A stretch of 28,805 nt of DNA, taken from positions 1 through 28,805 of the IMG/VR virus record IMGVR_UViG_3300008267_000710; one strand, written 5' to 3'. The position numbers and the translations under genes were made by a program. How positions within the stretch are numbered: the first letter of the stretch is position 1; the number at the start of each line of letters is the position of its first letter. The notes beneath the pieces are model-generated. The model was given only the letters and a program-made list of their open reading frames with translations, ran no database searches and was not told the origin of the DNA. This document shows positions 332-28,390 of this stretch, one piece after another. This DNA is from a virus.

Positions 332-702
332 CCAAGTTTTAAACCGTCACTTGATAGGATATACCAGTTTCCTTCAACAAACTGAAACTGGACACAAGCT
401 CCTTTTTCTAAAAGGAGTTCATCCCACTCTTCATCAATAGAACCAACATCTGATTTAATTAAAACATTTGTTAAAGATTTAATTGTAATTTTTGAGGAGC
501 TATTTGAATTTAGTGTTACTTCAGAGTAATCAACATTTTTTACAATTAAAAATGTTTCATCACTTGTTGTGTAATTTGAGTCAGAAATAATTTTATGAAT
601 TTCTTTTGGGTGTTCAATAATTACTTTTGGTTCAACAACTGTTTGTGTTTGGTACCTAACAACATTTTTTCTTTGTGTAAGATTGTCAATTTTAATACTC
701 AT
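328..702 (-). CDS. small beta-rich, virion-like protein of unknown function
   Basis: This 124-aa protein has a short basic N-terminus followed by alternating hydrophobic residues that suggest beta strands (TFLIVKNVDYSEVTL, then KITIKSLTNVLIK). It ends with GNWYILSSDGLKLG. Short ends of the W-Y-I-L-S type are common on beta-structured phage virion proteins (fibres, head decorations), so a structural role is a reasonable inference, not an identification. Its ATG (700-702) overlaps the TGA of the upstream gp13-like gene in an ATGA arrangement, so the two are probably translationally coupled and made together. There is no signal peptide or membrane segment. Confidence 0.7.
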   Translation of the reverse strand: MSIKIDNLTQRKNVVRYQTQTVVEPKVIIEHPKEIHKIISDSNYTTSDETFLIVKNVDYSEVTLNSNSSSKITIKSLTNVLIKSDVGSIDEEWDELLLEKGACVQFQFVEGNWYILSSDGLKLG

Positions 703-1823
703 ATCACATATATTTGTCTTGGCATTGCTCTGAACTTGAGCTGTTTATTTAAGTTTTCAGCAATTTGTGCTTCTCTTTCCATAACCTTTTCTGGTTTTAA
801 TCTTGTAAGTCTACCTTCAGCGCCTATAAGTTCGTCAATTAATTTTGTCTTTTCATCTTTAGCTTCTGTTGATAATGATTGATAATCCATTGTTAAATCA
901 CCATCTGGTGTTTTTAAATTACCACTAAACTTACCACGAACTTTAGAAAGTGTTTCTTTACAATAAGCAATAAACCATCTTCTAACCCAAATTTGTGCTG
1001 GGTTGTTTAAATCTTGCCAACTTATTTTATCAAATGGAACATCAGATGGTAATTTAATAATATCTGGATTATCCTTTAAACATTTATCTCTATCGTCCGG
1101 ACCAACATCATAATACCAATACCAAACTTTACCTCTCATCAATGTTGAGTTACCAAAGTCAAATTTACCACCAGGTGTGTTCATTAAATGAATTGCTTTT
1201 TTTCCATCTGGAAGTGCTGTAACTCTATACGTTAATTCACCAGCAATAATCCTTCTTTGAATATTAATCTCTTGCATTCTTAATAACATATCAAAAGCTG
1301 GCATCATAAAGTAAGATCCTGACATATTACCAAGTTGCGCATATCCAGCAGGACCTGAAATACCACCACCGGCAATTCCACCAAATGTCCAAGGGTCAAA
1401 TAACATATTATTTAATGTTGGTGGTGTAAACCATAATAATTCATTCAATTCTCTATTTGCTGGAATTTCATAAATTTGTTGACCTCTTTCTAATTGGATA
1501 TAATCTTTTTTTAACACATAATCACCACCCGCTTGTAACCCAACAATTTTGGAATAAGCATATGTATATCTTGTTTCGTAATCTAAACTTCTTGTTGTAA
1601 AAGCTCTGGATAAAGATTGTGTATCCAGATTTAAATTATTAAGAGCGGTCCATTGAGATTCAATTAACCAATCTTGAACATATTGAGAATACTCGTCAAT
1701 TGAAAATTCAAGTAAAGTATCCATTTGTTCATCTTCCAATTCGATACTTCTTAAAGGAGCCCCTAATAAATGTCTTATTTTTTTGTAAAGCTCACTTCTG
1801 TCTGGTTCATTAATAATTGCCAT
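699..1823 (-). CDS. gp13: neck / head-completion protein, T4 gp13-like
   Basis: This 374-aa protein resembles the gp13 neck family, which closes the filled head and prepares it for the tail. The N-terminus has the family pattern of a short helix, a hydrophobic LGAP segment and an acidic helix (LEDEQMDTLLEFSIDEYSQY). The C-terminal part has WVRRWFIAYCKETLSKVRGK, then a short loop and EKTKLIDEL, as I recall from cyanophage gp13 proteins. It is longer than T4 gp13 (about 309 aa); a Gly-rich loop near residues 148-165 accounts for part of this. It lies on the opposite strand from the other neck and tail genes. A TATTTAT element sits 15 nt upstream of the ATG. The assignment is by pattern recognition without alignment. 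Confidence 0.68.
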   Translation of the reverse strand: MAIINEPDRSELYKKIRHLLGAPLRSIELEDEQMDTLLEFSIDEYSQYVQDWLIESQWTALNNLNLDTQSLSRAFTTRSLDYETRYTYAYSKIVGLQAGGDYVLKKDYIQLERGQQIYEIPANRELNELLWFTPPTLNNMLFDPWTFGGIAGGGISGPAGYAQLGNMSGSYFMMPAFDMLLRMQEINIQRRIIAGELTYRVTALPDGKKAIHLMNTPGGKFDFGNSTLMRGKVWYWYYDVGPDDRDKCLKDNPDIIKLPSDVPFDKISWQDLNNPAQIWVRRWFIAYCKETLSKVRGKFSGNLKTPDGDLTMDYQSLSTEAKDEKTKLIDELIGAEGRLTRLKPEKVMEREAQIAENLNKQLKFRAMPRQIYVI

Positions 1824-1838
1824 AGTGATTTTTTTTAT

Positions 1839-1846
1839 ATAAATAT
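1839..1846 (-). promoter_or_regulatory. TATTTAT late-promoter-like element for the gp13-like gene
   Basis: The minus strand reads GATATTTATA. The 8-mer ATATTTAT ends 15 nt before the ATG at 1823. It overlaps the last base of the preceding 78-aa gene, so this gene can be transcribed separately from its upstream neighbours. Confidence 0.5.
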
Positions 1847-2082
1847 CACCTTCTTGGGTTTACTAAATTTCTAAGGTCAATTTTAAACCTTTCATTCTTA
1901 GCTAAATTTCTAATAATATCTTGTGGAATATTGTCACCAAGTCTTAAGACTCCGTATTTTTCGCCAAAATTATTAAACAATCCTAATACTTCTTTTGTTT
2001 TTTCATCACCAATTAAAAAAGATTTATAATCATCCATCGTTAATATTGGAAACTGAATAAAACCAGACATTGTTTTATTCAT
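1846..2082 (-). CDS. 78-aa protein of unknown function
   Basis: This small basic protein has no recognised domain. It has a conserved-looking hydrophobic start (MSGFIQFPILTMDDYKSF), and an acidic-to-basic helix follows, ending in a basic tail (NLVNPRR). A second in-frame Met at residue 5 (MSGF) could be the true start. It lies 2 nt downstream of the metalloprotease-SOD gene and is very likely co-transcribed with it; its own 3' end runs into the element in front of the gp13-like gene. Nothing visible tells its role. I regard it as a real gene because of its tight packing and lack of a competing frame. Confidence 0.6.
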   Translation of the reverse strand: MNKTMSGFIQFPILTMDDYKSFLIGDEKTKEVLGLFNNFGEKYGVLRLGDNIPQDIIRNLAKNERFKIDLRNLVNPRR

Positions 2083-2084
2083 CT

Positions 2085-3893
2085 TTAATTAAGTAATCCT
2101 GGTGTCTTTGCAAGTTCGATTATTTTGTTTTTATCGTAATAAGATAATTCAACACCAGTGTTTGTATCATTTGGTATCCCAACTAATAAACCTGTTATAT
2201 CTGTGAGTAAGTATGCCAAAATATCTTCGGCTTGGTTTTTTATATCATCACTTTCGTGTCCTACAAGTAACTCTAAAAAATTTGGGTATTGACTTAATCT
2301 ATTCAATTCTTCTTTATTTTCTGGACTACCATTATATTGGAGAATAAATTTTTTCAAGGACTCTTTAATACTTTTTACATTAATTCTTTCTCCTAAATCT
2401 CTTACAACTTTACAAGAAATTTTATCACCTCTTGTTGTTGATACATCAAATGGAGAAACATTACTTATTGCTAATTGACCATCAAGAAAACCAGCAACCA
2501 TACCCTCAAAATCAAAACCTCTTGTTTTACTTTTAAGAAATCTCTTAAAGTAATTGTTAAACCTATATTTAGATCTTTCAGACACATCTTTTAAATTAAG
2601 AGTCATAAGACCCTCAAGAGTTCTATTGAAGTTTAAATTACCTCGTTCAATCTCTGCTGAGGTAATATTATTTATTGCTTCAGCAGCCGCTTCCGCATCC
2701 AAAGGTATAAGTCTAATTTTTTGTAGTTCTCGACTCATAGCCTTTTTTAAATCCATATCGATTTCTTCGTTCTCAACAAGTAATCTTGAAATAGATTCTG
2801 TTAATTTCTTTTTTGATTTTGTTTCATATAAATCATTCACAAAATCCCAATTTATATGATTCCAAAAGTTTGTGATATATTCGTCTTTTTTATTTTGATA
2901 TTTTAAATAAAAAGCGTGTTCCCATAAATCAAGACCCAATAGTGGATAACCACCACCTTTAATTATATTCATCAAAGGATTATCTTGGTTTGGCGTAAAC
3001 ATAACTTTTAATTTGTTTCCTTTTGTCAAAACTAACCAAGCCCAACCAGAACCAAAACCATCTTTAGCTATTTGATTAAACTCATCTTTTAATTTTTTTA
3101 TATTACCAAAATCTTTTTTAATTTTTTCTAAAATTGGTCCGTTTGGTATTTGTTTTTTTGGTGAAAGCATTTTCCAAAATAATGCGTGATTAAATGCACC
3201 ACCAGCATTGTTTCTAATTTTATCATCAAATTTACTGATTTCTTTAACAATGCTTTCCAAATCCTCAACCTCAATATTTTGGTCAGAAAGAAACTTATTT
3301 AATTTTTTAACATAACCTTTATAGTGTTTATTATAATGTATGTTCATTGTTTCAGAATCAATAAATTTTTTCATAGATGAATAAGCGTAAGGAAGTTTCT
3401 CAATTCCAATTCTTTTCATTTCCAAAAGAAGTTCATTTTGTGTATTTTCTTTTTCTGTTATTAAAATTTGTTCATTAATAACAGAAAGTTTTCTTTCTAA
3501 ATTTTCATACATCATATGTTCTTTTTTGGGGTATTTTTTTTCAAATTTTTTAATTAGTTGACCAGCAAAAGCGTTTGCCTCATCTTCATTTTTACCCCCA
3601 ATATTTGGTCCTTTTTCTCTTTTAAGGATGTCTCTTTGATAATCGTGAACCCACTCGTGAGCCAATGTTCTTAAAACATCCCTATTTATCCTCCCTTTAG
3701 ATAAAATTCTAATACGTCTCAAATTTTGATTGTGACTACCAGTTGACATTGTTTTATCTCTTTTATCAAGAAACTGAATAGTCAAATCATTTTTAAGAGG
3801 ATAATTTTTTTGTAAAAAATAAATAAATTCTTTATAAAATGTTTTTTCTTCTGACGAGATTTCTTTATCAGTATATAGAACTTTAACTTTCAT
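2085..3893 (-). CDS. fusion: zinc-metalloprotease-like + Mn-type superoxide dismutase + unknown C-terminal domain
   Basis: This 602-aa protein has three parts. Residues about 1-125 carry HEWVH (79-83), a zincin HExxH motif, with an acidic EDEANAFA (103-110) placed like the third metal ligand of ImmA/gluzincin-type proteases. Residues about 166-357 are a complete Fe/Mn superoxide dismutase domain: LPYAYSSMKKFI, then metal ligands His186, His236, Asp322 and His326, with His190 and the Tyr34-equivalent Tyr194 present. Gly231-Gly232 before NH and Gln303 in NQDNPLM follow the manganese-type pattern rather than the iron-type one. Residues about 365-602 match nothing I know. SOD converts superoxide to oxygen and peroxide. 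No signal peptide is seen. It starts a minus-strand unit with a TATTTAT element 5 nt upstream, next to virion genes. Domain calls are firm for SOD and likely for the protease. Confidence 0.9.
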   Translation of the reverse strand: MKVKVLYTDKEISSEEKTFYKEFIYFLQKNYPLKNDLTIQFLDKRDKTMSTGSHNQNLRRIRILSKGRINRDVLRTLAHEWVHDYQRDILKREKGPNIGGKNEDEANAFAGQLIKKFEKKYPKKEHMMYENLERKLSVINEQILITEKENTQNELLLEMKRIGIEKLPYAYSSMKKFIDSETMNIHYNKHYKGYVKKLNKFLSDQNIEVEDLESIVKEISKFDDKIRNNAGGAFNHALFWKMLSPKKQIPNGPILEKIKKDFGNIKKLKDEFNQIAKDGFGSGWAWLVLTKGNKLKVMFTPNQDNPLMNIIKGGGYPLLGLDLWEHAFYLKYQNKKDEYITNFWNHINWDFVNDLYETKSKKKLTESISRLLVENEEIDMDLKKAMSRELQKIRLIPLDAEAAAEAINNITSAEIERGNLNFNRTLEGLMTLNLKDVSERSKYRFNNYFKRFLKSKTRGFDFEGMVAGFLDGQLAISNVSPFDVSTTRGDKISCKVVRDLGERINVKSIKESLKKFILQYNGSPENKEELNRLSQYPNFLELLVGHESDDIKNQAEDILAYLLTDITGLLVGIPNDTNTGVELSYYDKNKIIELAKTPGLLN

Positions 3894-3925: not shown

Positions 3926-5686
3926 TTAAATAGATTTATTGATAAGATTTAGAATTTCTTCTACAACATCGACAGATTCTACAATTTCATCACCCATTAC
4001 GGTTCCAATTACCTTTTTCTTTTTATTTAGAATGTCATAAATAACACCTTCAATAGTGTTTTCAAAAATTGGATAATAAACCAGAACATTATTTTTTTGA
4101 CCATAACGATATGCTCTATCTTCGGCTTGTGCGTGTTCTGCCGGAACAAACGATAAGTCATTCATTATTACAACCTCAGCCGCGGTTAATGTAAGACCAA
4201 CACCGGCAGCTTTTAAGTTCCCAACAAAAACTTTGATTTTTTCATTTTCCTGGAATTGGTCAACGGCGTATTGTCTTTGGACTTTATTACAACTACCATC
4301 AAGATATACAGATTCTTTGCCAAAATGATTATGAATTAGTTGTAACGTGTCGGTAAAGTTTGTAAATATGATTACTTTTTTTCCTTGATCTATAATGTTC
4401 TGAACAAATTCAATTGTGTCTTTTACTTTTTCATTTGCAATTACTTTTCTTACTTTCATTAGTTTTGAAAACTGAACTGTAAGAGAAGATGATTCATCGG
4501 TTTTATTTTTTAACCAATCATAGTACTCACCCATCAAATCTTTATATTCTTTTGATGAGGTTCTAAGATATACTGGTGTAATAATTTTATCTGGCAAATC
4601 AAGGACATCTTCCTTTAGCCTTCTTAAAATTTGTTTTGATGTTCTATCTCTTAGTTCCTCAAGATTAGATGCCCCAGTTACATTCCATACTTTTCTTTTT
4701 CCAGCTCTAAACTGAAAACCTTGGCAATAACGAATAGCATAAGCCATCCAGTTTTGTGCTACCGGACTTTCAATTATATTAAGGAGGTTATAATAATTTA
4801 TAGGTCTTGATGTCATTGGTGTTCCAGTAAGTAACCAAACTCGTTTAATATTTTTTACAAAATCATTTATAAGTTTTGTTCTTTGTGCTTGAGCATTTGA
4901 AACCATATGAGCTTCATCTAAAATCACAAGTTCAAAATTTGATTGTAATAATTGTGAATTTTCTTTATCTTCTTTACTGTGAAAGTTTTTTAATATATCG
5001 TAGTTTACGATAACAAAATCAGCTTCGGTTGAAAATTTTTTACCTTCAGCAATAAAACAGGTTCTATCTGAATAATTTGCAATTTCTCTTTCCCAATTTA
5101 TTTTAAGTGACGCTGGACAAACAATTAAAATTTTCTTTGCCCCAGTTTCAAGAGCCGCAATAATTGTTGAGGTTGTTTTTCCAAGTCCCATATCATCACC
5201 CAAAATAAATCTTCTTGACCCTACTAATTTTTCAATAGCTTCCTTTTGGTGTGATAGTGGTGGTCTGTGTTCGTATTTAGAATAATCAATATTAACCTCA
5301 TCTACCGTTTGTGATTTTATTAGTGAAGATTTTGGAACCCAGAATTCAGATAAGACATCTTTTTCAAAGAACTTACCCCAAATATGATACGACTTATCTT
5401 TTTCAACAAGTAATTTTTCAATATAAACATTTTCTGGTGTTTCTAACAAGTATCTTTCAGTTGCAAACTTCTTTGCAAAGTATGGATCCAGTTCAACCCA
5501 CTTACGAGCAACCTTTGGTTTTGTGTCAAAATAATTTACAATGTAGTCCGCTTGAGTTCTTGTCGGATAAAACTTTTTATTGGTTTCCTTTTTAGATTTC
5601 ATATAAAGGATATAGTTGTTGGCACCACTATATGACCCCAACAAATCAAGGGCTTTATGTTCTATTAGTTGTTTTTGTAATTCCAA
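3926..5686 (-). CDS. SNF2-family DNA helicase/translocase (SMARCAL1-like)
   Basis: This 586-aa superfamily 2 ATPase is of SNF2 type. Visible motifs are Walker A GDDMGLGKTT (163-172), DEAH (257-260), TGTP (287-290), and the C-terminal lobe with FTNFTD (441-446) and QAEDRAYRYGQ (520-530), whose arginines serve ATP hydrolysis. The roughly 140-residue N-terminal region precedes HQKEAIEKL, as in SMARCAL1/HARP-like annealing helicases. T4 uses UvsW, a different SF2 helicase, for fork reversal and recombination; this protein may fill that role. The start is a TTG at 5684-5686, because the next in-frame Met is residue 29. A TTATTTAT element lies 11 nt upstream. The gene diverges from the gp14-like gene. 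Confidence 0.9.
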   Translation of the reverse strand: MELQKQLIEHKALDLLGSYSGANNYILYMKSKKETNKKFYPTRTQADYIVNYFDTKPKVARKWVELDPYFAKKFATERYLLETPENVYIEKLLVEKDKSYHIWGKFFEKDVLSEFWVPKSSLIKSQTVDEVNIDYSKYEHRPPLSHQKEAIEKLVGSRRFILGDDMGLGKTTSTIIAALETGAKKILIVCPASLKINWEREIANYSDRTCFIAEGKKFSTEADFVIVNYDILKNFHSKEDKENSQLLQSNFELVILDEAHMVSNAQAQRTKLINDFVKNIKRVWLLTGTPMTSRPINYYNLLNIIESPVAQNWMAYAIRYCQGFQFRAGKRKVWNVTGASNLEELRDRTSKQILRRLKEDVLDLPDKIITPVYLRTSSKEYKDLMGEYYDWLKNKTDESSSLTVQFSKLMKVRKVIANEKVKDTIEFVQNIIDQGKKVIIFTNFTDTLQLIHNHFGKESVYLDGSCNKVQRQYAVDQFQENEKIKVFVGNLKAAGVGLTLTAAEVVIMNDLSFVPAEHAQAEDRAYRYGQKNNVLVYYPIFENTIEGVIYDILNKKKKVIGTVMGDEIVESVDVVEEILNLINKSI

Positions 5687-15584: not shown

Positions 15585-18500
15585 ATGTCAGATAGTTTTT
15601 TATCATTTGGTTCATCGGCTCAGTTTAGAAACACTTTGATTGCTAGAAATTTAGCACCATATAGTGTTCCTGGTGTTTTTGCACCACAATCAAGTAATGT
15701 TAATTATGAAACAAATCTAACAGTTACAAATGTAATTGACTCACCAAATAATTTAGTATCTACAAATAATCAAGCAAATATATTATATCCTTTAAATGAA
15801 TACGGACCAGATGGTGGATTTGGAACACCAATTGGTTTAAGTAATACACCATTAGCTGTTGACTCTAATAAAGGACCATACGACCCAAATGATACAGTAA
15901 TTGATTTAGTAAATGAGTTTTTTATAGATGCGGCATATGTTCAAAATACTTATGGTCCACAAGGTGGTTTTAACAATTTTGTAATAATTACAGATATTAT
16001 TAAACCTGGAAAAATTTATCAACCATATTGGGAACCACCAACATTTGCACCATCATCATATAGTCCATATGACATTTTAATTAGTAATAACCCAACAGGA
16101 AGTAATGGAAGTTTATCACAAGATTCATATATTATACAATTAGGATCAAGTGTCTTAAAAGATTTATTATTACAAAATCAAAATTTTTACACACAACAAA
16201 GTTTACAGAGCCAAGATTCAATAAACTTTAGTATAACAGTTGATGATGTAAACGATAACTATTTAAGTCGATTAGGTGGATCATATGTTCCATTTTCTCC
16301 AATACCTGGTGATTATTTTTTAGATGGTACTACAAACAGAACAACCGATACACTTGGTGAAGCAATAAATTTAGTTGCCGGTAGAAGTACTTTATTTGGG
16401 GGTGCGTTAAATGGAGGGTTAACAAGAGCTGTTAATCAATCACAATTATTTTTAGAAAATACCAATGACGGACAAAAAGGTATTATGTTTGCAAACATTT
16501 CTAAAAACATATACAGACCAGCTTATGGTGGTTCACTTTTAGCGGGTATTGGTACAAATTTACTAACAACAGGAATAAATAGTTTAATTGACGGTTTTGG
16601 TGTACAATTACCAGGAGCATACTATGTTGGTTCCACTTTATCAGAACCTGCATATTTGGAATCACCTATTGATGCTGTACCAACAGATGTTTTTGGTAGA
16701 GACACCCAAGCTATTGTTTTTGGACCAGATGTATTAGGTAAAGAATATGAAAAAAATCAAGAAAAAATTAATTTTGGTTTAAAAGCTAAAACATATACAA
16801 ATAGCGGAAGTATTGACGGTGAATTTATTTGGACATCACCAAAATATAAAGATAATGCTGGTTTTTATGTATCACCTGGTGGAGCCCCAACATCACTTGA
16901 TGATACGTTTAACTTTGTTGAAGCAAATTACAATAGAAATTTATCAACAAATATTGATTTTAAACCTGGGTCAATATTAGATGACACACAAAGATTAATT
17001 AATTCTGCGGATAGTTTACAAGGTGAAGCTAGATTAAAACACGTTGGGAATGCAATGAACCAAGTATCCAAGGTATTCAGTGATGGATACAAAGAAATGA
17101 CAAAAGGTTCACAAGTATTGAGGTATAATGATAATACAAACGGTACTGAAGCTGGTATAGAATATTGTAGAGTTTTTACAAAAGATACACCATATTTTAC
17201 ATTTGGTGATTTACAAAAGTCTGATGGTATTACAACTGCTGGTAGAAAATTTTCATATTCTGTATTTGATAGTACATACAATTTAAATATTGCACCATTA
17301 AGAGGCGTTGATTCAACAAACATCTTTAATAATAAAGTTAAAAAATATATGTTCTCAATTGAGAATTTAGCTTGGAGAACATCTGATAGACCAGGTTATA
17401 CTTATGACGAACTACCAGCTTGTGAAAGAGGTCCAAATGGTGGAAGAATTATGTGGTTTCCACCTTATGATATTAGTTTTAGTGATGATAGTAAACCAGA
17501 TTTTGGCTCAACAAGTTTTCTTGGAAGACCAGAACCAATTTATACATATAAGAATACATCAAGAAGTGGTTCATTAAAATGGAAAATAATTGTTGATACA
17601 CCAGCATCACTAAATACAATTATTGAAAAACAATTAGCAAACACACCAAAAGAAAGATTAGATTCAATTGTTGATTCTTTCTTTGCTGGTTGTACAAAAT
17701 ATGACTTATATGAATTAGGTATTAAATTTAATACAATACCAACAAGAGATTTATTTACATATCAAGAATTATTAAATAACCCAAGACTAACAACAGAAGA
17801 GTTTGGACAAGTTGTTTCTGAAATACCAACAGAAAATGTTGTTACAAGTACAGAAGAATCTGGAAGTGCCGGATTAAACACAACTGGCGGTCAGAACACA
17901 ACAACAGCTAAAAACAATCAAGACAATCCATTTAAAGACCTTGAGGGTTTAGGGTTTTATTTTAATCACAACGCACCAACTGGGGCTGGAAGTGAGACAT
18001 CTGCTGAGGATTTTGGAACTCTTTTTGAAAATTATAAAATACAATATGAAGAAACAAAAAATTTAGAACCAGGAGAAACAATTTTGGGAGATCAAACATA
18101 TATAAAAGGAGAAGTACCAACTTTGTGGAACTCTGTAATCACTGGTAATTTTGATAAATTATCAAAATCTTTAATAGAAAATACAAACAATATTTTAAAA
18201 GAAGGTGGTAGAGTTAAATATATGTTAGAAGGGACATCTTCAGCACCAGGTACTGAAACTTATAACGAAGAGCTCGCAAAAAGAAGAATTTCATCTGTTG
18301 AAAAATGGATTTTTTTACAAAAAGATAGTAACGGAACTTCATACCAGGACCTTATTAAAGAAGGAAAAATAATAATAGATAGTAACCCAATTGGTGAAAA
18401 AATTATTATCCCAATTGGTGAAGCACCATTTACAAAATCGATTAATTGTAACGAAATTCCTAAACAAAAAATAATAGCTGTTACAGCAGGAGGAGGGACA

Positions 18501-19637
18501 TCGAATGTCCCACCAACAATTGTTGCAACAACAGAATCTAAACAATTTTCTTTACCAGCTATGGCCTGTAGACGTGTAATCTTGAAGGCAACATCAGTAA
18601 CACCACCAGAACCAGAAATACCGGTTAACACAGAGAGTAACCCAGAAGAAAAAAAAGTTAATGAAACTAATCAAACAAATAATGATGTTACAACAAACAC
18701 AAAAAAACCAATTCCTCAAGTTGATGTAACACAAAAAATAAAAGAAGGTATTTCTAAAAAAGTATTAAGACAATTATTTACTGAATGTGATTATTTCCAA
18801 GTAATAAAGGAATCTAATCCGATGGTTTACGATACGTTTAAAGAAAAAATAAAATATTTTAGTCCGGCATTTCACTCAACAACACCAGAAGGTTTAAATT
18901 CAAGGTTAACATTTCTTAATCAATGTACAAGACCTGGACAAACAATACCAGTTATTGGTCCAGACGGTAGACCAAAATATAACGACGCATTAAATACTGC
19001 TTTTGGTGCTCCACCTATTTTAGTTTTAAGAGTTGGTGACTTTTATCATAGTAAAATTGTACCAACAGGACTACAAATTGCGTATGACCCATTAATTTTT
19101 GATATGAACCCGGAAGGTATTGGTATACAACCTATGATTGCAACTGTAACATTATCTTTTAATTTTATTGGTGGTATGGGATTAAAAGAACCAATTGACC
19201 AACTACAAAACGCTCTATCTTTTAACTATTACGCTAATACAGAAGTTTATGATGAAAGAGCAACAGCAACTGAAGATACTTCAGCAAGAGATAAATATGT
19301 TGTTGAAAAGATATTGGCTAATCAACCAACAGTGACTCAAAATCAAGTACAAAATCAACAACCAAAAAAAGGTGGAGACACAATCGGAACAATTTTATCA
19401 ACAACCCCAATTAGTGGGACAACAAATGAAACTGGTGAAATTGAATATTCTTCACTTATGAAAGAATTGTCAGACCAAACAAATAACTATTTTAAAACAG
19501 TATTTAACCAATTAAAAACAATTCAAAACACAACAAACTATGGAATGTTACAATTAGTTGGATTCAAAAGAAAATACTCAAAAGGTGATTTGTGTTTTTT
19601 TAGTGATAATAAATTACCAACAAATATATATGGTTAA
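15585..19637 (+). CDS. baseplate tail-tube cap/initiator protein (gp48/gp54-like) with OmpA-like insertion
   Basis: This 1350-aa protein has two segments that recall tube-cap proteins of contractile injection systems. About residues 624-672 hold MWFPPYDISFSD and FLGRPEPIYTYKNTSR. About 1140-1195 hold PPILVLRVGDFYHSK, VPTGLQIAYDP and a PMIATVTLSFNFIGG strand. T4 gp48 and gp54 are only 320-364 aa. Much of the extra length is an N-terminal region with YGPDGGF/YGPQGGF repeats and a middle insertion (about 855-925) that looks like an OmpA-like peptidoglycan-binding domain (VKYMLEGTSSAPG, then YNEELAKRRISSVEKW). Long Thr/Asn-rich linkers flank the insertion. The end overlaps the next gene's ATG by 8 nt. 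The tube-cap call is by pattern only. Confidence 0.55.
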   Translation: MSDSFLSFGSSAQFRNTLIARNLAPYSVPGVFAPQSSNVNYETNLTVTNVIDSPNNLVSTNNQANILYPLNEYGPDGGFGTPIGLSNTPLAVDSNKGPYDPNDTVIDLVNEFFIDAAYVQNTYGPQGGFNNFVIITDIIKPGKIYQPYWEPPTFAPSSYSPYDILISNNPTGSNGSLSQDSYIIQLGSSVLKDLLLQNQNFYTQQSLQSQDSINFSITVDDVNDNYLSRLGGSYVPFSPIPGDYFLDGTTNRTTDTLGEAINLVAGRSTLFGGALNGGLTRAVNQSQLFLENTNDGQKGIMFANISKNIYRPAYGGSLLAGIGTNLLTTGINSLIDGFGVQLPGAYYVGSTLSEPAYLESPIDAVPTDVFGRDTQAIVFGPDVLGKEYEKNQEKINFGLKAKTYTNSGSIDGEFIWTSPKYKDNAGFYVSPGGAPTSLDDTFNFVEANYNRNLSTNIDFKPGSILDDTQRLINSADSLQGEARLKHVGNAMNQVSKVFSDGYKEMTKGSQVLRYNDNTNGTEAGIEYCRVFTKDTPYFTFGDLQKSDGITTAGRKFSYSVFDSTYNLNIAPLRGVDSTNIFNNKVKKYMFSIENLAWRTSDRPGYTYDELPACERGPNGGRIMWFPPYDISFSDDSKPDFGSTSFLGRPEPIYTYKNTSRSGSLKWKIIVDTPASLNTIIEKQLANTPKERLDSIVDSFFAGCTKYDLYELGIKFNTIPTRDLFTYQELLNNPRLTTEEFGQVVSEIPTENVVTSTEESGSAGLNTTGGQNTTTAKNNQDNPFKDLEGLGFYFNHNAPTGAGSETSAEDFGTLFENYKIQYEETKNLEPGETILGDQTYIKGEVPTLWNSVITGNFDKLSKSLIENTNNILKEGGRVKYMLEGTSSAPGTETYNEELAKRRISSVEKWIFLQKDSNGTSYQDLIKEGKIIIDSNPIGEKIIIPIGEAPFTKSINCNEIPKQKIIAVTAGGGTSNVPPTIVATTESKQFSLPAMACRRVILKATSVTPPEPEIPVNTESNPEEKKVNETNQTNNDVTTNTKKPIPQVDVTQKIKEGISKKVLRQLFTECDYFQVIKESNPMVYDTFKEKIKYFSPAFHSTTPEGLNSRLTFLNQCTRPGQTIPVIGPDGRPKYNDALNTAFGAPPILVLRVGDFYHSKIVPTGLQIAYDPLIFDMNPEGIGIQPMIATVTLSFNFIGGMGLKEPIDQLQNALSFNYYANTEVYDERATATEDTSARDKYVVEKILANQPTVTQNQVQNQQPKKGGDTIGTILSTTPISGTTNETGEIEYSSLMKELSDQTNNYFKTVFNQLKTIQNTTNYGMLQLVGFKRKYSKGDLCFFSDNKLPTNIYG

Positions 19638-20499
19638 AGATATAAATCAGGGTCAAAACCCAATTGTTATTCAGTTTTCAGGAACACCAAACGTACAATC
19701 AAAATCAGTAAGAGCCGTCCAAAATTTTTTAAAAACAACATTACAAACAAAACAAAATGAATTGAATCAAACCGTAATTGGACCTATAAATGAAATTACA
19801 AAATTCCAAGAAAATTATACATATACATTTAAAAAAATGGATGCTGTAATTTATAATGTAAATTTAACTGGAACTACAAGAGGTGGTGTTGATGGTAAAA
19901 AATTAGAAACCGGTGAAAATAAAATATATGAAATAATTCAAATTGAAGGACAACCTAATTTTGATAAAATGTTTAACCAATATAAGGATTCTGTTTGTGA
20001 TAATCTAAATAAATATGATAAGTTTATTGAAACAAAACAAATTTCAAACCCAGTGCTATTTATTGAACCAGAATCAACATTTACACAAATTGGACCAAGT
20101 GGAGAACTTAATAATAATGACACGAATAGGTTTTATATTATGATGTGTGACACATTTGTTGATGATGCAAAATATAATGTATTTAGAGAACAAATGAAAA
20201 ACATAAAAGAAATTAGAGAAACACCTTCAGAACTAAATCAGTTGGTTAAAATTTTAGATAATTTACAAGTTTTGTTTAAAAAAGAATTTGAATTAGAAAA
20301 AAAATTGTTTGCAGATGTTGAGGTTAGTCCAGAATATAAAACTTTTGATACCTTCAAATTAGATACCATTGAAACTAAGTTTAAATACACAACAGATTAT
20401 CAAGATGTTGTTGAAAGACAAAAAATAATGAGAAGAGTGTATAGCAATAACAATGATAATGTAAATGACACATTCAACCTAAAAGTAAAATTTAATTAA
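19630..20499 (+). CDS. baseplate-operon protein of unknown function
   Basis: This 290-aa protein starts at the ATG at 19630, which overlaps the previous stop (ATGGTTAA). A longer reading from a TTG at 19558 exists, but its first 24 residues lie wholly within the preceding gene, so I reject it. The protein is soluble, with an N-terminal strand segment (NPIVIQFSGTPN), a helix, and Lys/Glu-rich helices in the C-terminal half (about 185-250). I do not recognise it. Its place between tube cap and gp53-like genes, with a 1-nt gap to the latter, argues for a baseplate component or assembly factor. Confidence 0.7.
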   Translation: MVKDINQGQNPIVIQFSGTPNVQSKSVRAVQNFLKTTLQTKQNELNQTVIGPINEITKFQENYTYTFKKMDAVIYNVNLTGTTRGGVDGKKLETGENKIYEIIQIEGQPNFDKMFNQYKDSVCDNLNKYDKFIETKQISNPVLFIEPESTFTQIGPSGELNNNDTNRFYIMMCDTFVDDAKYNVFREQMKNIKEIRETPSELNQLVKILDNLQVLFKKEFELEKKLFADVEVSPEYKTFDTFKLDTIETKFKYTTDYQDVVERQKIMRRVYSNNNDNVNDTFNLKVKFN

Positions 20500-20500
20500 T

Positions 20501-20827
20501 ATGTCACAATTACAATATTTTAATAGATATAGTAACTTTTTAATCAATGGACAACAAACAATTGTTCCTTATATTACATTACCATCAAAGTCTACCGATA
20601 AAAATTATATTTATAAAGTTGGTCAATCAAGACTTGATAAGATATCACAACAATATTATGACTCACCATTTTTTGGTTGGTTAATATTACAAGCAAATCC
20701 ACAATTTACAGGAATGGAAACTAATATACCAGATGGTTCAATATTGACAATTCCATTTCCGTTACTAACTTCATTACAAGATTATAAAAACGAATTAGAT
20801 AATTATTTCTTCTATTATGGTAGATAA
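20501..20827 (+). CDS. gp53: baseplate wedge protein with LysM-like fold, T4 gp53-like
   Basis: This 108-aa protein begins YFNRYSNFLING and has a LysM-type core: YIYKVGQSRLDKISQQYY (about 37-54), then FFGWLILQANPQ, and the closing strand GSILTIPFP. T4 gp53 (196 aa) holds wedges together around the hub and contains a LysM domain, with the same YY...WW/GW pattern. This one is about half the length, so only the LysM part plus a short N-terminal arm is present. It overlaps the next gene by 11 nt. Confidence 0.7.
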   Translation: MSQLQYFNRYSNFLINGQQTIVPYITLPSKSTDKNYIYKVGQSRLDKISQQYYDSPFFGWLILQANPQFTGMETNIPDGSILTIPFPLLTSLQDYKNELDNYFFYYGR

Positions 20828-23800
20828 CAGTGAAAACATTTTAGTAGAATTTGACTATGACAACATATCAGTAATTGACCCAAACAAAGTAATTGACAGT
20901 GAAGGCAATGTAAAAGAAAGATTTGTTAAACAGGAAAATTTAGTATTCTATGCAAACTTAGAGTGTAATGTTCTACCAAGAACTAAACTTGCTGTAGGTT
21001 CCGCATTAAATGATTCTGTTAGAACAATTTCAGTTGGAAAAATTAATTTTTTAAATCCAGGTCAAAAGACTTTTTTAGAAAACACATATACAGATGAAAT
21101 TACTGGTAAAGGTTCTGTAGAGGGTAAAGGTGTTAATCAACCAAAATTAACCGCAGTATCAAATCCAAATAAAACTAATGATTATTATATCACACAAAGT
21201 TTAAATTCAAATGGAAATCCTGGTGCTGTTGATAATGGATTATTAGGTATTACTTCTATAAAATTTACTGTAAATACATCGTTTCAACCAGTAATCGACA
21301 TTGATCTTGAAGATGTTAAAGGAAGAGCTTTATTTGAAGCAGGAGATAACTCACCATATGCGGCATTTTTCCAATTACCATATCCTGCATTCTATTTAAC
21401 ATTAAAAGGATATTATGGTAAAGCTGTAAGATTTCCAATTATGTTACAAAACTTTACATCAAGTTTTGATCCATCAACTCATAACTTTAAAATCAAGTTG
21501 AGTTTTTATGGGTATAAATACACAATAATGTCTCACATAAATTGGGCAAGTATTTTGGCGGTACCCCATATGTATACCTCAACAATTAAAACCCCAACAA
21601 CATCAACTACAAATTCACAACCTAATCAAACAACAGTTAAAGAAAAAATAACAAGTAAGGGTTATGAAAAAATGAAAGAGTTATATTCTGAATATAAATC
21701 AAAAGGTTTGATTTCAGATGATTTTCCAGAAATAACTCTTACACAATTAAAAACCAGATTGGATACGTTCTTAAAAGATCTTATTGATAAATTCACAAAA
21801 GAAAATCTTGGTGTATTAACCGATATTGGGAATTATGAAACATTAGTCCAAGAGTATGAAAAAGAAGTGTATAGTTATACAGATTCTTGGGCAAAAACTA
21901 ATTTAGATTTTACAAACCCATTTATAATTAAAGACTTAGAAAAAACTAAAGTTTATACTTTTTTAAAAGAAAAAAATTTAGAACAAAGAACTACAGCAAT
22001 TAATGAATTACAAGATAAATTAATCACAAAATATAATGAATTACTTGCAAATAATTTAGTTTTAGGTTTAAATGGTAAATATGTCATTAATGGTAAAGAA
22101 ACACCAAGTAATGTACCAAATACAATAGTTTATAACACTTTTATATACAATACTGATATTACATCATTACTTAATAGTGAAATAGATTTAAACGAAACAT
22201 ATTCTTTTAGAAATGCTGGGAAAAAAGCTACTGGCGATACCGTAATACAGGAATTTAAAGAAAAAATAAGAACTGAATTAAACAATCTTCCAGATACTTT
22301 TGGTTTTTGGTTTGAAGGAACATCTAATGGTAATAAGTCTTTTGTAGAATTGATAAAAGAAATAACAACAGAAGTTAAAAAAATAAGAAAAACAATAGAA
22401 GATCAGTTAACAAAATCACTTGAGGAAAAGTTTGTTGAAAAAAATAATACAATTGGATTTGTCCCAACCGTAAGAAACGTAATGGCCGTATTTTTTGCTC
22501 AAGCTGAAGCATTTCTTAGGCTTATGGATGATGTCCATACCGCAGCATGGGAAGTAAGAGATAACCGATACAGAAAAGAAGCGGTATTTAATAAAAATAC
22601 TGCAGCCCCAAGTGTTGATTATAAAGATGTTGTTGAAAACAATACACCTATTTATCCTTGGCCACAATTAATATTACAAAGTGTAGGTGACGATAAAGAA
22701 GAAAAATTTGAACCAAAATATCCTGGAGACCTTGCTTTTGCATCATCAGTAAAAGCGTTTGTTCCAGAGATATGGCCTGAAGTTCAATTTGTTGAAGAGT
22801 TTATTAAAGGATATACAGAAAGAGAAAGTCCAGAACCAGAACCAGATTATCAAGGAAATTTACAAACAAGACCAGATAGAGTTAGTTTAAATGCTCTTGA
22901 TTTTCCGGTTAATAATGAAGTCTATCAAAATACACAAGAAGTTAAGTTTTTTTATGAAATATATGAAAGACTTATAATGAACAGTTTTTTTAGTAGACTT
23001 AATAGAAAATCTGGTGACGCATTTGGTGTTTATACTGTTGAATCAGAAATGGAAAAAGAAAGTATTAAAAAAGCTCTTGGCGATGATAATCCATTTCTTA
23101 TACAAAAATTAAAAGATTATAACATTAACGCTAGTAATTTTTTAGCTTTTTTAAGACATATTTCTAATCAAGGTGAAGGAGAAAGTTGGCAAAAATTTAT
23201 TAGAGGTGAGTTTACATCTAGCTATATAAAAAATGAAATAAGTGTACCAACCTCACTTATTAATCAAAAAATACTACAAAGTGAAATTTCGAAACCAACT
23301 TTAAGTGTTACAAGTGAAAGTAAGTTAAACTCTTATTTACAAAGTCCTTCAGCTTCGAATGTTTTTGAATTTGGTGATTTATACCCAGTTGTTAATTTGG
23401 ATTATTTGAAAAAATATTTTGCAGATGGAAAAGCTCTACAAAATTCTGTAGATGCATACAAAACAAATGACGTAATGGTGTTTAACACAGATTATAAGTC
23501 AATTTCTAATTTTTTAACATCGGATAGTGACGACACTAAAAGACCATTTACAAATTTCAATTTTAAAGGAGACACATTAAACCAACCTTTAGATTTAACT
23601 AATCTTAAAAACTTTTATCAAAATAGAAAAATAAAAGATCAATTTGTAACTGAAGGTAATGTAAATTATATTAATTATAGTGGTTCATTGATATACAATC
23701 AAACAACCTCTATGTTAAACACCCCTTATTTTGTTAATTCAATATTAAAAGGTGTTAATGAGTTTAGATTTAATACCACAGATTTGTCATCATACAAATT

Positions 23801-27718: not shown

Positions 27719-28390
27719 ATGACAAACACAGAACAAAAGATTTTAGAAGAAATCAAAAGGTATCATTTGATTAATAATTATATTACAGAACAAGAAGCAC
27801 CCCCACCACCAGAAGGAGATGTACCCCCACCACCAGGAGGAGATGTACCCCCACCACCAGGAGGAGCACCAGATGCGGCAGCAGCACCGCCACCAGGAGG
27901 AGCACCAGCACCAGATGCAGGAGGAGCAGGACCAACCCCTATTGATCCAGCTACGGATCCAGATGTTGAGGAAGTTGGTAAAGAATCTGACGAAACAGAA
28001 GAATTAGATATAACTGATTTAGTTACATCTCAAAAAAATATAGAAACAAAACAAGAAGAATATTTTGATAACTTGTTTAATCAATTGAAATCTTTAGAAG
28101 ATAAACTTGCTGAAATGGATAATATTGTTGCGTCTATTAATAATTTGGAGACTAAGGTTGAGAAATATAGACCAAAAACAGCACAAGAAAAACTTGAGCT
28201 AAGAACATTAGATTCTGGTCCGTTCAAACAAAAACTTTCTGATTTCTTCGTTGATAAACAACAAGAAATGGAAAAAGCTGGTAAAAACGAATACGTTTTA
28301 ACAACTGATGATGTTGAAGATTTTTCACCAAAAGAAATTGAAGATTCATTCCATACTTTGGACGATGAAGAAGATGATTTTGAATATTAA
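27719..28390 (+). CDS. proline-rich, acidic, coiled-coil protein, possible virion/scaffold component
   Basis: This 223-aa protein has three regions. The first about 25 residues form an amphipathic helix (KILEEIKRYHLINNYITEQ). Residues about 26-80 are Pro/Gly/Ala-rich with three tandem 8-residue units of the VPPPPGGD type. The rest is strongly acidic with a coiled coil (about 100-145, KSLEDKLAEMDNIVASINNL) and ends in DDEEDDFEY. Such an acidic helical protein with a short N-terminal helix could be a scaffold or internal head protein. The codon use in the Pro region is far more G+C rich than the neighbours. The gene is followed by a strong terminator. The function is an inference. Confidence 0.7.
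   Translation: MTNTEQKILEEIKRYHLINNYITEQEAPPPPEGDVPPPPGGDVPPPPGGAPDAAAAPPPGGAPAPDAGGAGPTPIDPATDPDVEEVGKESDETEELDITDLVTSQKNIETKQEEYFDNLFNQLKSLEDKLAEMDNIVASINNLETKVEKYRPKTAQEKLELRTLDSGPFKQKLSDFFVDKQQEMEKAGKNEYVLTTDDVEDFSPKEIEDSFHTLDDEEDDFEY
27797..27868 (+). repeat. 24-nt tandem repeat, 3 copies, coding PPPP-rich units
   Basis: Units at 27797-27820, 27821-27844 and 27845-27868 differ by only a few bases and encode A/V-PPPP-E/G-G-D/A. They are locally G+C rich compared with the rest of the window. Confidence 0.8.

Follow-up and report, generated by a model that had tools for sequence, protein, structure and literature searches.

We report that a 28,805-nucleotide stretch of viral DNA (IMG/VR record IMGVR_UViG_3300008267_000710, positions 1 to 28,805; hereafter referred to as the window) encodes a protein in which a complete Mn-type superoxide dismutase (SOD) lies between two short tag-like joints, with a zincin-like domain in front and a truncated nuclease-like module behind. 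The joints resemble tags used for head loading and trimming, and the SOD would thus probably be delivered into the host together with the phage DNA. Tentatively, and with more doubt than confidence as to the picture as a whole, we suggest a virion-loaded, protease-releasable effector cassette in which an active SOD would be packed as one precursor with a zincin and a rapidly exchanged restriction-like nuclease, the three would be cut apart in the head, and the SOD would be injected at time zero against host superoxide, as one among some 35 tagged cargo proteins per genome, an arsenal much larger than that of T4. The features are as follows (positions in the window; basis in brackets).

3926..5686, minus strand: SNF2/UvsW-like helicase, the upstream neighbour (conserved synteny).
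2085..3893, minus strand: whole ORF, 602 aa, with zincin-like domain, tag 1, SOD, tag 2 and truncated nuclease-like module (relatives found).
3510..3893, minus strand: zincin-like metallopeptidase domain, residues 1-128, with HEWVH at 79-83 and E103/D104/E105 (model and invariant motif).
3420..3509, minus strand: joint 1, a tag-like linker, residues 129-158, closing with LSVINEQILITEKENTQNELLLE and ending in L-x-E right before the SOD (163/163 conservation and homology to N-terminal tags of zincin-less SODs).
2820..3419, minus strand: Mn-type Fe/Mn SOD domain, residues 159-358, ligands H186, H236, D322 and H326 (Pfam, PDB alignment, conservation).
2769..2819, minus strand: joint 2, an internal capsid-targeting-like tag, KLTESISRLLVE/N, residues 363-375 (tag-profile rank).
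2085..2768, minus strand: type A C-terminal module (C-module), PD-(D/E)XK restriction-endonuclease-like, truncated, residues 376-602 (model of the intact module of relative L002).
1846..2082, minus strand: 78-aa ORF, the cut-off C-terminus of the type A module (95% identity to the corresponding part of the L002 module).
699..1823, minus strand: head-tail adaptor (neck) protein, the downstream neighbour (phrog_211, conserved synteny).

At joint 1, [L/I/V]-x-E precedes the SOD in all 163 relatives, where, counted from LPYxY, Glu occupies position -9 and L/I/V position -11. The next residue is usually Met, which might be a former start codon or belong to the beginning of the SOD, and it is Ala in eight relatives, where L-x-E is still kept. 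At the same locus, 49 zincin-less relatives have only an N-terminal tag of approximately 29-38 aa before the SOD, ending at the same L-x-E site. When the joint 1 profile was compared with N-terminal tags, seven of 38 scored 19-29 bits against 15.3 for the best of 760 shuffles, while the remaining, lower-scoring tags overlap the shuffles. The second tag (KLTESISRLLVE) stands ahead of most C-modules and is missing in relatives that end after the SOD; it is confined to proteins with a C-module, with one exception among 52 proteins that lack one. Free-standing tagged copies of modules A and B exist as well, and these have the joint 2 sequence as their N-terminal tag, while joint 2 conforms to a shorter pattern where a type C module follows.

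Protein starts in two related phage contigs (296 and 257 kb) carry tags such as MKKIIRLTESDLTRIVKRVIKE, MKIIITESQYKLIKEN and MNLQESIRRILREE, and about 35 proteins per genome begin with short tags ending in L/I-x-E, their bodies being mostly unrelated (L163-L177 in the 296-kb contig and L178-L190 in the 257-kb contig). Specifically, 37 tagged proteins from the two genomes have N-terminal tags of three classes and are spread over 27 clusters with unrelated bodies, and the tag is therefore a module. A profile was derived from eight MNLQES-type (MNLQESIRRILREE) tags and run on the 161,167 13-mers of both related proteomes. It picks mostly protein starts, and joint 2 of the window (KLTESISRLLVEN) would rank 14th of 161,167, for the most part preceded by genuine N-terminal tags. 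Several proteins of relative G001 have at least two tags, one at the start and one internal (L168 and L167, G001 95498-101947), e.g. a 430-aa protein tagged at 1 and 317 and a 507-aa protein tagged at 1 and 187, which extends tag-joined multidomain precursors beyond the SOD gene. Elsewhere in the window, positions 27719-28390 encode a protein starting with MTNTEQKILEEIKRYHLINNYITEQEA followed by a Pro/Gly-rich stretch, possibly a tagged core protein, and a HAD-like gene (FDWDDN motif, 10988-11952) begins with the tag-like MNQKKFIEKLINE, which is missing from the G001 homologue, and is broken by a frameshift near 11611-11668.

In T4, cleavage by the prohead protease gp21 follows L/I-X-E, and internal proteins enter the prohead by means of short N-terminal tags with this motif at their end (PMC9026906). 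Relatives of the window encode a gp23-type capsid protein with SFLINE/ATGEG in its N-terminus near residue 60, and a scaffold-like protein full of LxE repeats. LINE/A at capsid residue 60 lies at about the position where T4 gp23 is cut. A Peptidase_S77/gp21 prohead protease (E=4e-22) is present between the portal and capsid genes of G001, a region outside the window. In some relatives the portal and terminase genes look much longer and include intein-like stretches (L171, G001 162873-165968; L178/L179, G002 14400-22492). Judged by its capsid protein (41%), Flavobacterium phage immuto (NC_055915.1) is a cultured relative, which has MKKSQLREIIRKEL-type protein starts and IVSE/A in the capsid protein; in immuto (L191), tags (MKKSQLREIIRKEL and DLKKFLVENKL...ILKE) are also found on metabolic genes, e.g. 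that for cob(I)alamin adenosyltransferase.

From these likenesses we infer a T4-type internal-head-protein cassette, with prohead loading, cleavage at both joints and ejection with the DNA, a reading that we hold to be reasonably probable. The sequence-only reading had proposed that the protein may be packaged, and this idea is strengthened independently by the gp21-type tags and by the L/I-x-E at the joints, which point to loading. The product would be a modular head-protein precursor with a Mn-type SOD flanked by two T4-CTS-like tags, and these would bring it into the prohead core. There a gp21-type prohead protease would cut after L/I-x-E, and zincin, SOD and nuclease-like cargo would come apart within the head, to be ejected along with the DNA. 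In the newly infected cell the SOD would clear superoxide within the first minutes, while the nuclease-like cargo would act on host, rival or defence-related DNA, and the zincin on some protein. Several points speak against head loading, however: the tags are short and an L-x-E triplet by itself is common, in the window's protein the tag is internal, and N-terminal only in the zincin-less relatives, whereas the T4 CTS is N-terminal, and the gene is located near helicase and neck genes, away from the capsid operon.

The locus order in the relatives is always helicase, SOD-fusion gene, neck protein. Hence, of the earlier placement among virion genes it holds that the gene borders such genes, with the head-tail adaptor downstream and the helicase upstream, but it is not in the capsid operon. 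This position would also suit a conventional auxiliary metabolic SOD, made and active in the infected cell as an uncut multidomain protein, never packaged, and with the L-x-E joints as ordinary linkers. Moreover, untagged stand-alone SODs of the same Fe/Mn fold occur in other large phages, e.g. Pseudomonas Wroclawvirus (182 aa) and Vibrio phage 2.275.O (189 aa), which differ from the window's SOD in having neither fusion nor tag and are approximately 26-30% identical to it. Invariance of L/I/V-x-E in 163/163 relatives is, however, unexpected for neutral linkers, and the homology of the tags, their N-terminal position in zincin-less relatives and the loss of tag 2 when no cargo follows also argue against this account, to which we give perhaps one chance among several. 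A late-type element, TATAAATA, previously suggested to govern the gene, is absent next to it and shows no enrichment across the window (9 occurrences vs 5.5 expected).

Returning to the head-cargo reading, the part that would be released behind the SOD varies among the relatives. In zincin-bearing relatives the SOD is followed by a type A, B, C or D module or by nothing, and zincin-less relatives have, at the same locus, SOD plus type E, SOD plus two modules or SOD plus a short tail. Overall, the cargo comes from one of four nuclease-like families unrelated to each other or from a single non-nuclease family, or is missing; the C-module families were clustered under a coverage rule, as two-module proteins otherwise link them. 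Over most of their length, families A, B, C and E cannot be aligned with one another, yet a D-x(n)-(E/Q/S)-x-K stretch is conserved in every one of them. For types B, C and E, where no credible Pfam match was found, it is the conserved D-x(n)-(E/Q)-x-K motifs that suggest a nuclease-like nature, whereas for type A, and for it alone, this is backed by the fold. A tree built from 131 SOD domains implies at least 27 changes of cargo, a count that weakly supported branches may inflate, and one change of the zincin state. Type D is a member of a tagged small-protein family found in tandem right beside the SOD gene of G001, where five tagged paralogues of about 149 aa form an array around it (238754-242671, L174-L175); one such paralogue is now the type D C-module of the SOD gene, i.e. 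cargo capture caught in place. The 635-kb huge uncultured phage LR745206.1 encodes, at 68.3 kb (L285), a distant relative of the type A nuclease-like module as a free-standing 310-aa protein that starts with MKYLLPYKIYESYDEDW.

Compared to L002, the window is without 49 nt near position 2085, which shifts the frame and turns the end of the type A module into the separate ORF 1846-2082; relatives with the same C-module have approximately 693-707 aa versus 602 aa in the window. This deletion, not the fusion itself, could be a contig error. The fold was modelled on the intact L002 copy (pLDDT 84). Foldseek returned HinP1I, NhoI and Eco15I in its ten best rows (E 0.01-0.2, probability mostly >0.9 and up to 1.00), and the top 33 rows from VIA-align were all restriction enzymes (best Z 8.3). 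Type A models as a PD-(D/E)XK-type restriction-endonuclease fold, as in the type II enzymes NhoI/Eco15I, HinP1I, 3ndh and PvuII, while Pfam revealed no sequence relation of the module to restriction endonucleases. Glu101, Asp121 and Lys133 (alignment A2 numbering) are invariant, as is P-x-D, but with S-C-K (SxK) instead of (D/E)xK at the active site, catalysis is uncertain. The sequence-only reading had counted about 235 residues of unknown sequence here; these belong to a module of about 335 aa that is cut short, and structure prediction, which had been proposed as a check, gave a restriction-endonuclease-like C-domain (L002 copy), hence not an unknown one, along with a zincin for the N-domain.

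Fe/Mn SODs are normally stand-alone enzymes of about 200 aa, and the bacterial cambialistic/Mn SODs (PF00081/PF02777) share the same complete domain, which here is fused and tagged. Both Sod_Fe_N (E=3e-21) and Sod_Fe_C (E=1e-37) scored above the curated Pfam cut-off across residues 165-354, and MnSODs in the PDB align with residues 166-358 with up to 217 bits. His186, His236, Asp322 and His326 together with the gateway residues His190/Tyr194 are invariant in 56 non-redundant relatives, and so are the Mn-type Gly/Gln signature (GG/NQD) and the WEHA bridge. On Pfam, PDB and conservation evidence, a complete Mn-type SOD with its ligands and gateway Tyr194 had thus been named correctly, and judged from its residues the SOD is very likely catalytically competent. 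Its nearest cellular relatives found are from Bacteroidota, with up to 50% identity. The suggestion that the SOD fold is reused for binding only is disfavoured, as the invariance covers every catalytic residue, beyond those of the fold. For the same reason we find it improbable that the SOD is a non-enzymatic chassis, i.e. a dimerisation unit or a Mn/Fe carrier for the fused nuclease that is kept structurally and not for dismutation: the ligands, the gateway His/Tyr, the Gly/Gln signature and the WEHA bridge are all retained, and some relatives have the SOD without any cargo. This idea has in its favour that the SOD is constant while the cargo changes, and that nucleases of the PD-(D/E)XK class, as the fused ones would be, need a divalent metal.

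In the N-terminal domain, HEWVH (residues 79-83) and EDEANAFA (103-110) are located as claimed. HExxH (HEWVH or HEWIH) is present in 56/56 non-redundant relatives, and E103, D104 and E105, on helix 101-120 of the model and each a candidate for the third zinc ligand, are all invariant in 56 relatives. The model (pLDDT 86) has M1 aminopeptidases, YbeY and Wss1 as best structural matches (Z 8-10 over approximately 110 residues; 9.8 to ERAP2 and 9.7 to 1oz9), with zincins throughout the top of the list, while Foldseek gave only E 0.02. Sequence searches gave no match in Pfam, PHROG or PDB, and none in GenBank phages or GTDB genomes. The domain models as a zincin metallopeptidase fold, with its identity taken from the fold alone, and this supports the earlier metalloprotease-like assignment. 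A stand-alone zincin gene of 129 aa is present in a 322-kb relative, roughly 145 kb from its tagged SOD.

The ORF has the coordinates given for it before, runs on the minus strand (3893 to 2085) and encodes 602 aa. At least 594 IMG/VR stretches encode relatives (one scan of IMG/VR), and a search for the same three-domain order in other phages, as had been recommended, gave an identical order in 158/158 loci from independent contigs, fetched by whole-protein and N-domain queries. Relative to L002, the nearest relative, dN/dS is 0.05-0.07 for each of the N-domain, the SOD and the C-module, and all parts of the protein are under purifying selection. The relatives in many contigs, the invariant motifs and the low dN/dS exclude chance and an assembly joint as origin, and the proposal that three domains are truly fused in a protein of a contractile-tailed phage is borne out. 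That separate genes were joined during assembly is barely conceivable and was ruled out by the relatives' domain order, the conserved synteny and the dN/dS, even if the window has at least two frame-broken genes.

The phages that carry the gene are large, T4-like and from lakes, and as a group they are widespread. The isolates nearest by capsid protein infect Flavobacterium and Microcystis, and based on these isolates and on the cellular relatives of the SOD the host is likely a member of the Bacteroidota.

The closest known system is that of the T4 internal head proteins (IPI-III, Alt), in which short tags ending in L/I-x-E are likewise found on many unrelated proteins, with a gp21-type protease and a gp23-type capsid protein in the window's relatives. 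The differences are that here tags are also positioned between domains and that the cargo would be SOD, zincin and a restriction-like nuclease. The best-known use of such cargo is in T4, where internal proteins block host restriction enzymes (PMC12373910). Polyvalent proteins (Iyer et al. 2017, PMC5512222) similarly combine several unrelated enzymatic domains, including zincin metallopeptidases, in one phage polypeptide; they are predicted to be injected, with self-processing by the zincin being stressed. With an SOD, a zincin fold and a nuclease-like fold, the present protein has the at least two disparate enzymatic domains that define them, but its domains are bounded by prohead-protease-type sites, and "superoxide" is absent from the main text of PMC5512222. 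Precedent for a packaged SOD comes from chlorovirus PBCV-1, which carries the Cu/Zn SOD A245R in its virion and in which superoxide is lowered after infection (PMC7019647), although A245R has an unrelated fold, belongs to a eukaryotic virus and is unfused.

Accordingly, the parts are already known: SOD, zincin, the PD-(D/E)XK fold, T4-type tagging and polyvalent phage proteins (PMC5512222). Within the reach of our searches, there is no earlier description of the domain combination, of a SOD that is probably head cargo, or of internal protease-type joints at which cargo is freely exchanged; no paper on a tagged or fused phage SOD was found, an absence that, given the limited literature coverage, is weak evidence. 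If our reading is true, antioxidant enzymes would be added to the proteins that phages may inject along with their DNA, and a single gene would document the acquisition and exchange of cargo by internal head proteins. Moreover, a simple sequence rule, a short tag ending in L/I-x-E, would, for a large group of mostly uncultured phages, point to about 35 candidates for injection in each genome, and this rule is testable in the cultured Flavobacterium phage immuto, which has similar tags in its proteins and in its capsid propeptide.
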